In this document: positions 8,771-10,142 of the stretch, one piece after another
How positions within the stretch are numbered: position 1 is the stretch's first letter
Layout: each line of letters starts with the position of its first letter
Assembly (NCBI RefSeq): GCF_900103715.1
Contig: NZ_FNHL01000004.1
Span: 186,001 to 250,000, forward strand
Direction of reading: 5' to 3'
DNA: 64,000 nucleotides
Origin: Halogranum gelatinilyticum
Lineage (GTDB): Archaea > Halobacteriota > Halobacteria > Halobacteriales > Haloferacaceae
Program-made: the position numbers and the translations under genes
The notes under the pieces: model-generated
The model's database searches: none
What the model was told of the DNA's origin: nothing
What the model saw: the letters and a program-made list of their open reading frames with translations, nothing else

Positions 8771-9202
8771 ATGACGTTTGTCGTCCCGTTTGATGGCTCC
8801 GAACTGGCAACAGCCGCCCTCGACCGCGCGGTCACCCTCGGCGACGCCCTCGGCGAACCTGTGGTCGCAGTCAGCGTCGTCCGACGGAACGACGCCCCCT
8901 ACGCCCGCAAGAAGGGATGGCTCGACGCCGACGAGCCGTTCGACCTCGAAACGATCGTCGAGAGACTCCGCGAACAGGTCGCCGAGGCTGCCCCCGACGC
9001 CGAGTTCCGCCACACCACCATCGGCCGGTTCACGACGGATTCGGAGGTCGCACGGGCGATTCGGGGCCTCACAAGGGAGGTCGACGCGACGGTCGTCTTC
9101 GTCGGCAGCGACAACGCGGGCCGCATCGTCTCGTCGCTGTCGAGCATCGGAACGAAAGTCGCGACCGACGTCGCCTACGACGTCTACATCGTGCGGAGCT
9201 GA
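8771..9202 (+). CDS. Universal stress protein (UspA family)
   Basis: The 143-residue protein begins with the Usp strand and loop TFVVPFDGSELATAALDRA and ends with a hydrophobic strand DVYIVRS. The family nucleotide-binding motif G-x2-G-x9-G-S/T is degenerate here (FVGSDNAGRIVSSLSSIGT), so ATP binding is uncertain. Usp proteins are cytoplasmic dimers of poorly defined role, induced under stress. It is monocistronic with its own TATA box. Confidence 0.85.
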   Translation: MTFVVPFDGSELATAALDRAVTLGDALGEPVVAVSVVRRNDAPYARKKGWLDADEPFDLETIVERLREQVAEAAPDAEFRHTTIGRFTTDSEVARAIRGLTREVDATVVFVGSDNAGRIVSSLSSIGTKVATDVAYDVYIVRS

Positions 9203-9260
9203 GAGCCGATGGATCTTGTCACCGGCTTCGACAGGTGAACCGTGACATCTCATCGACGCA

Positions 9261-9270
9261 TATATTTATA
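9261..9270 (+). promoter_or_regulatory. TATA box upstream of the small gene and HalX operon
   Basis: TATATTTATA lies 35 nt (centre) before the GTG at 9301. A second AT-rich block at 9283-9299 may contribute. The box is the strongest TATA match in this part of the window. Confidence 0.5.
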
Positions 9271-9300
9271 CCAGCTCGGCCAGTAATTATTTGTATCATA

Positions 9301-9504
9301 GTGACTCTCTGGGGTGGCCAGCAGTTCGACTCGGCCGTCGACGGCTGGACGACCGCGGTGTTCACCCGCGACGAGAGCGAATCCGCTGAACGCGACAGTG
9401 TCAGCGGACCCCTCGGAACCAGTGGAACCAACAGGACCAGCGAGACGATGGCGACGAACGCTGCGGAGACCCGTCGGCCGACAGTCGAAGGGACCGACAG
9501 ATGA
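9301..9504 (+). CDS. Small hypothetical protein coupled to the HalX regulator (67 aa)
   Basis: A GTG at 9301 opens 67 codons with near-complete G/C third positions from the first codon on, which marks genuine haloarchaeal coding sequence. The product is hydrophilic, starts with VTLWGGQQFDSAVDGW and continues into a Ser/Thr/Glu-rich tail. It has no Cys, no membrane helix and no family that I recognise. Its TGA overlaps the ATG of the response regulator (ATGA at 9501-9504), so translation is probably coupled. The start is uncertain; an internal ATG at 9448 would leave only 18 residues. Confidence 0.55.
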   Translation: MTLWGGQQFDSAVDGWTTAVFTRDESESAERDSVSGPLGTSGTNRTSETMATNAAETRRPTVEGTDR

Positions 9505-10142
9505 CCACAGACGACGAGACGACTCACTCGGCCGACGACGAAGCCAGTCGGACAGACGAAAGCGAGAGCGACCGGCCGGTCGTCCTCGTGGTCGAAGACC
9601 AGCCCGCAGTCGCCGAGACCTACCGGCAGATGCTCGCGGACCGCTACACGGTCCGCGTTGCGACCGACGGAGGGGCGGCACTCGCCGCCCTCTCGACGGG
9701 CGTCGACGTCGTGTTGCTCGACCGCACGATGCCCGGCATATCGGGCGAGGAGATACTCGCGGAGATCCGTGACCGTGGCTCCGAGTGCCGGATGGCGATG
9801 GTGACCGCCGTCGAGCCCGACGTCGACATCGTCGAGATGGGCTTCGACGCCTACGTCCAGAAGCCGCCGACGCGGGCGGAGCTGGTCGCGACGGTCGAGG
9901 ACCTCCTCCGCCGGAGTCGCTACGCCGCGGATCTCCGGAACTACTGCACCGCCCTGTCGAAACAGGCGACGCTGGCGGCTGCCGAGAAGCCGATGGCGGC
10001 CCACCCGGAGTACGCGACGTTGGTGGCCGACATCGAAGCGACGGGCGAGCGACTGCAGGCGGCCGCGGTGGACCTCACCGACGACATGGCGTTTCTCTCC
10101 GTTATCCGCCACATCGACGAGACGCCCGGCGTCGACGCCTGA
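9501..10142 (+). CDS. Response regulator with HalX domain
   Basis: The 213-residue protein has a receiver domain at about residues 28-145 (VVLVVEDQP with the acidic pair, phospho-acceptor Asp in VVLLDRTMPG, Thr in VTAVEP, Lys in YVQKPP) and a C-terminal HalX domain (about residues 147-205), an all-helical module found in haloarchaeal response regulators. The first 25 residues are an acidic leader. No kinase gene is adjacent. The start codon overlaps the stop of the small gene at 9301-9504. Confidence 0.92.
   Translation: MTTDDETTHSADDEASRTDESESDRPVVLVVEDQPAVAETYRQMLADRYTVRVATDGGAALAALSTGVDVVLLDRTMPGISGEEILAEIRDRGSECRMAMVTAVEPDVDIVEMGFDAYVQKPPTRAELVATVEDLLRRSRYAADLRNYCTALSKQATLAAAEKPMAAHPEYATLVADIEATGERLQAAAVDLTDDMAFLSVIRHIDETPGVDA

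Follow-up and report, generated by a model that had tools for sequence, protein, structure and literature searches.

Translation of overlapping genes is coupled in several described systems, which provide the closest precedents for the locus analysed here. ATGA-type coupling has been demonstrated in Haloferax volcanii, and 13 of 14 overlapping pairs tested, 9 of the 14 being from that species, were strictly coupled (PMC6728339). Coupling is almost abolished by a distance of ~20 nt, and in Escherichia coli the final 15 nt of the upstream gene are enough for it (PMC10666635). H. volcanii transcripts are mostly leaderless (72%), including 118 that start with GUG, at lower average coverage, and small ORFs occur in 16 of 97 long 5'-UTRs (PMC4983044).

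We analysed a 67-codon frame in a 64,000-nucleotide stretch of Halogranum gelatinilyticum DNA, the whole of which we call the window. The ORF occupies 9301-9504 on the plus strand, begins with GTG and ends with TGA at 9502-9504, sharing 4 nt, in an ATGA overlap, with a gene on the same strand that starts with the ATG at 9501; the frame and the overlap are thus both as an earlier sequence-only reading had described them. That reading had also named the downstream gene correctly: 9501-10142 (+) encodes a REC-HalX response regulator of 213 aa, with a receiver domain starting at residue 28 (Pfam Response_reg, residues 28-132, E = 8.4e-19, 68.2 bits against a cut-off of 30.2) followed by a HalX domain (residues 137-200, E = 2.1e-8, 34.9 bits against a cut-off of 23.2). 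Genes for Usp (universal stress protein; 8771-9202, +), MATE and TetR proteins lie upstream of the ORF on the same strand, and a convergent UbiB-like gene lies downstream of the regulator. The ORF frame is open upstream of 9301, back into the DNA of the Usp gene in another frame (the same-frame ORF from 8917 is 195 aa), so that the start at 9301 is picked only by promoter and codon signal. An N-terminal extension of the regulator was rejected as an explanation of the interval, with a stop in the regulator frame 114 nt upstream of 9501, no ATG, GTG or TTG between that stop and 9501, and codon scores of -0.49 to -0.01 from 9361 to 9481. The second half of the ORF product is of low complexity and rich in S, T and G. 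At 9415-9441 a degenerate 9-nt repeat (ggaaccagt ggaaccaac aggaccagc) encodes the stretch GTSGTNRTS. An AlphaFold prediction from the lone sequence was uninformative, its confidence being low (mean pLDDT 64.3, pTM 0.12, no DSSP assignment).

The probable TATA box of the ORF-regulator transcript is TTTATA at 9265-9270 (+). The sequence-only reading had placed it 35 nt upstream; the box is present, and by our counting its centre lies 33 nt from the GTG at 9301. In 234 called genes preceded by 100 nt or more of free sequence, TATA-like hits fell 27-32 nt before the start in 21 of 37 cases. Gene calling for this control and for the start and ORF controls below used a crude rule of length and GC3 that took the leftmost ATG or GTG, so some of the starts are wrong. 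The distance of 33 nt, one nucleotide outside this peak, predicts a leader of ~1-6 nt and hence a near-leaderless GTG start. A second AT-rich site, ATTATTT at 9286-9292 (+), has centres 12 and 11 nt from 9301 and, taken as the box under the same spacing rule, would put the transcript start near 9316-9322, after the GTG. We found no run of five A/T, as a mark of a nearer promoter, at 9321-9495, where a weaker box is still possible. A weak Shine-Dalgarno-like stretch, GAAGGG at 9487-9492 (+), was read directly 8 nt before the ATG at 9501; judged by eye, it may pair with the 3' end of the 16S rRNA. A riboswitch or structured leader was rejected, with no Rfam match at E <= 1 and ordinary RNA folding (z = -0.90; 38 of 200 shuffles fold as well).

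Codon use was scored with a model built from the 52 called genes of the window and compared with 421 pieces of called genes. It is gene-like in the first half of the ORF and carries no signal in the second. Scores of 20-codon segments rise from -0.39 at 9256 to 0.24 to 0.50 from 9286 to 9331, with the ORF frame the highest of all six at 9286, 9301 and 9316 (0.39, 0.32 and 0.50), and then range from -0.51 to 0.07 between 9376 and 9496; the stretch 9400-9501 scores -0.06. Over its full length the ORF reaches ~0.085 per codon, the 5th percentile of the gene pieces, and its synonymous codon choice falls at the 3rd. Its GC2 (0.627) exceeds its GC1 (0.582), an inversion equalled or surpassed in 1.2% of gene pieces. 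The strong GC3 bias from the first codon claimed by the sequence-only reading survives only in part: the signal does rise at the start and hold through the 9331 segment, but it is lost from 9376 onwards, and overall GC3 is 0.776, again the 5th percentile (median 0.894). In base shuffles the frame stayed open in 18.8% of cases, and 0.19% of these open frames reached the codon score of the ORF. Inside called genes, 40.5% of open codon-aligned antisense frames reached it, as did 5.9% and 0.3% or less of the other shadow frames.

Layouts of this kind are common. Of 129 called genes preceded by 200 nt or more of free sequence, 43 have an ATGA or GTGA start, and wherever a start reads ATGA, as the regulator's does, the overlapping TGA arises automatically. 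The frame ending at the overlap was open for at least 67 codons at 16 of these 43 starts, which are not independent of one another because the control loci are partly homologous or overlapping, and it held an ORF of at least 67 aa at 8, counting the window ORF and one probable real gene. Because such starts and open frames upstream of them are so frequent, the overlap is weak evidence by itself. A codon control took 42 sequences (the window and the loci of at least 8 kb) and collected ORFs of at least 40 aa that end at an ATGA or GTGA start preceded by 200 nt or more of free sequence. It returned 13: the window ORF, there extended to a start further upstream (89 aa, -0.03); a 202-aa ORF of locus L189 scoring 0.376, probably a real gene; and 11 others scoring -0.094 or less, all 11 of which the window ORF exceeds when counted from 9301. 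At 30 of 84 related regulator loci (92 minus 4 of the window's own genome and 2 with too little upstream sequence, repeats merged), some frame of 40-120 aa ended near the regulator, no more than 57 nt ahead of the first base of the matched regulator segment or 42 nt beyond it; many of these were shadow frames.

The ORF product is unrecognised, as had been claimed, with no Pfam, NCBIfam or PHROGs family at E <= 1. Searched against its own genome at E <= 10, it matched nothing but itself, and searches of 99 relatives and of 392 genomes of the order, each including its own, gave only weak matches, the best others at E = 0.007 and, per genome, 0.0064. In the order search 38 other genomes reached E <= 0.05, whereas exact E-values would predict ~20 by chance; several weak matches contain internal stops, and the query composition is biased. 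Plasmids held no credible homologue: a match on a Haloterrigena turkmenica plasmid (E = 0.4, 37.7%) was taken as chance, since it lies wholly opposite a 146-aa ORF and none of the 6 features annotated near that stretch, in an incomplete gene table, is a HalX gene. On viral contigs 7 stretches fitted a pattern and none was confirmed. The sequence-only reading had pointed to the same small gene upstream of HalX regulators in other haloarchaea, and none of the frames before the 84 related regulators convincingly resembles the window ORF. The best alignment was marginal (score 62; shuffles averaged 51.5 with a maximum of 69, and 2 of 60 reached 62) and, lying at another position, 169-364 nt before the matched regulator segment of locus L020, was taken as chance, as were the next four, in frames with two stops. 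By these comparisons the ORF is not a conserved small-protein gene: no homologous frame was found in the genomes searched, an outcome that the sequence-only reading had itself said would refute it, although the genomes that bear on the point are distant relatives, as the two congeners have no ortholog of the regulator.

Both congeners compared keep the TetR, MATE and UbiB-like genes in order, and at E <= 1e-5 nothing in their MATE-UbiB interval matched Usp, the ORF or the regulator. Neither has an ortholog of the regulator, their best matches grouping with L067, another regulator of the window genome. Since the whole Usp-ORF-regulator block is missing there, the absence of the ORF is no independent test of it. 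The congener interval itself carries a minus-strand gene of 115 or 113 aa (L187:4181-4528 and L188:4340-4681); the two versions look similar to the eye, and neither matched a Pfam family at E <= 0.1.

The closest listed relatives of the regulator are a paralogue in its own genome, at 58% identity, and others at 53% or less. A histidine kinase directly upstream, defined by motif and with its stop no more than 250 nt ahead of the first base of the matched regulator segment or 60 nt beyond it, is present at 15 of the 92 related-regulator loci, a total that counts own loci and repeats; 8 of these 15 are among the ten best-scoring loci after the window's own two. Wherever a recognised signalling gene lies directly upstream in the related loci, it is a histidine kinase. 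A tree was built from 86 regulators cut to 190 residues, after merging identical sequences, dropping fragments below 130 residues and excluding L001 and L106 by name. Its 13 kinase-labelled rows all belong to a single clade of 21 rows (support 99/96), which also contains the window regulator, row L158. Further clade members are likewise without a recognised kinase. L084, in the same clade, carries the label 'no kinase' because the motif missed its upstream kinase-like ORF. L158 joins L063 and L006 with support of 94/89, subject to a long-branch warning for L158 with L006. L063 is the own-genome paralogue (G000:C1:643797-644778) and has a histidine kinase directly upstream. Given how many members of the clade have upstream kinases, an origin of the window regulator from a kinase-regulator pair is probable.

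The window regulator itself has no adjacent kinase, in agreement with the sequence-only reading: the nearest HATPase_c match on the contig (E <= 1e-5) is at C4:213026-213349, ~17 kb away. A lone regulator is nothing special in this genome, however, since only 1 of its 4 HalX regulators adjoins one of its 31 HATPase_c matches. The kinase of the L063 locus is a candidate to phosphorylate the orphan.

We tentatively favour, at somewhat short of an even chance, the reading that the 67-codon frame is a lineage-specific leader ORF from which the orphan regulator is reached by termination-reinitiation. Transcription would start from the TTTATA at 9265, ~1-6 nt before the GTG, and ribosomes would initiate at this near-leaderless codon, make a short lineage-specific peptide, stop at the TGA and reinitiate at the overlapping ATG. 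Coupled translation of the two frames is plausible because of the predicted near-leaderless GTG, the ATGA overlap, the lack of a five-A/T run at 9321-9495 and the coupling known from H. volcanii; with a transcript start near 9297, the regulator start would lie ~200 nt inside the transcript, which makes reinitiation the simplest route to it. The strict coupling of tested pairs and the sufficiency of short 3' parts suggest that the act of translation, not the peptide, is the point, so the ORF may serve as a ribosome-delivery device whose peptide sequence is probably of little importance, and it may have assumed the part played in related loci by a kinase gene upstream. In its favour we counted the box spacing, the codon jump at the GTG, the score above the 11 control ORFs, the lack of a five-A/T run to serve as a nearer promoter, the absence of an Rfam match, unusual folding or a credible homologue, and the published coupling data. 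Against it we counted the excess of GC2 over GC1, the second-half codon score, antisense frames scoring as high, the box one nucleotide outside the spacing peak, the second AT-rich site, and the frequency of ORFs at ATGA/GTGA starts (8/43) and of frames at related loci (30/84).

The main rival holds that the ORF arose by accident and that the DNA is an untranslated 5' leader or a spacer next to a lineage-specific Usp-regulator block; the regulator would start on its own from a leadered transcript, and the frame would be open because the DNA is rich in G+C. This is a real possibility, if a doubtful one. It accords with the 18.8% of base shuffles that stay open, the 5th-percentile codon score that 40.5% of open antisense frames reach, the automatic ATGA and the 43 such starts among 129, the frames at 30 of 84 related loci, the AT-rich site at 9286 and the lack of a credible homologue. 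It fits less well with a codon score above 99.8% of open base shuffles and all 11 other control ORFs, and with a signal that begins at the GTG, at a near-leaderless distance from TTTATA. The sequence-only reading had instead cast the small protein as a sensor-side partner or modulator of the regulator, for which we found no support; the recognised signalling genes directly upstream in related loci are histidine kinases. A genuine lineage-specific small protein acting with the HalX regulator would agree with the co-directional 4-nt overlap and the gene-like first half, but we consider it unlikely given the lack of a credible homologue in the searches or before related regulators, the S/T/G-rich, low-complexity second half and the uninformative AlphaFold prediction. 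That a newly evolved small protein replaced a lost kinase and now sets the activity of the orphan regulator seems very unlikely. Hardly credible, finally, is a remnant of a histidine kinase that once preceded the regulator; the placement of the regulator with all 13 kinase-labelled rows, beside its kinase-bearing paralogue, would suit such an origin, but no kinase trace emerged when the ORF and the three forward frames of 9203-9500 were compared with 19 kinase frames (23 to 34 of 40 shuffles reached the score), and own-genome DNA matches were short (best E = 0.006 over ~30 bases).

If translated, the leader ORF would be a further case of a haloarchaeal gene start reached through a leader ORF, longer than the examples in the available text of the H. 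volcanii report, and would explain how translation reaches a regulator gene ~200 nt from its promoter in organisms with mostly leaderless transcripts; it reveals no new signalling partner. Like the H. volcanii leader ORFs (PMC4983044), it is a short frame between a promoter and a normal-sized gene in a haloarchaeon. Those given in the accessible part of that report are 15-31 aa long and lie in leaders mapped by dRNA-Seq, whereas the window ORF has 67 aa, is a predicted leader ORF and overlaps the next start by ATGA. With the ATGA-coupled pairs (PMC6728339, PMC10666635, as far as their available text goes) it shares the 4-nt overlap on the same strand and the lack of an obvious promoter between the genes; coupling of those pairs was tested with reporters, whereas that in the window is inferred and its upstream product is unconserved. 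The kinase-HalX pairs of haloarchaea, such as L063 in the same genome, L003 and L068, likewise combine a related regulator with another gene directly upstream, but there the upstream gene is a histidine kinase, which the window locus lacks.
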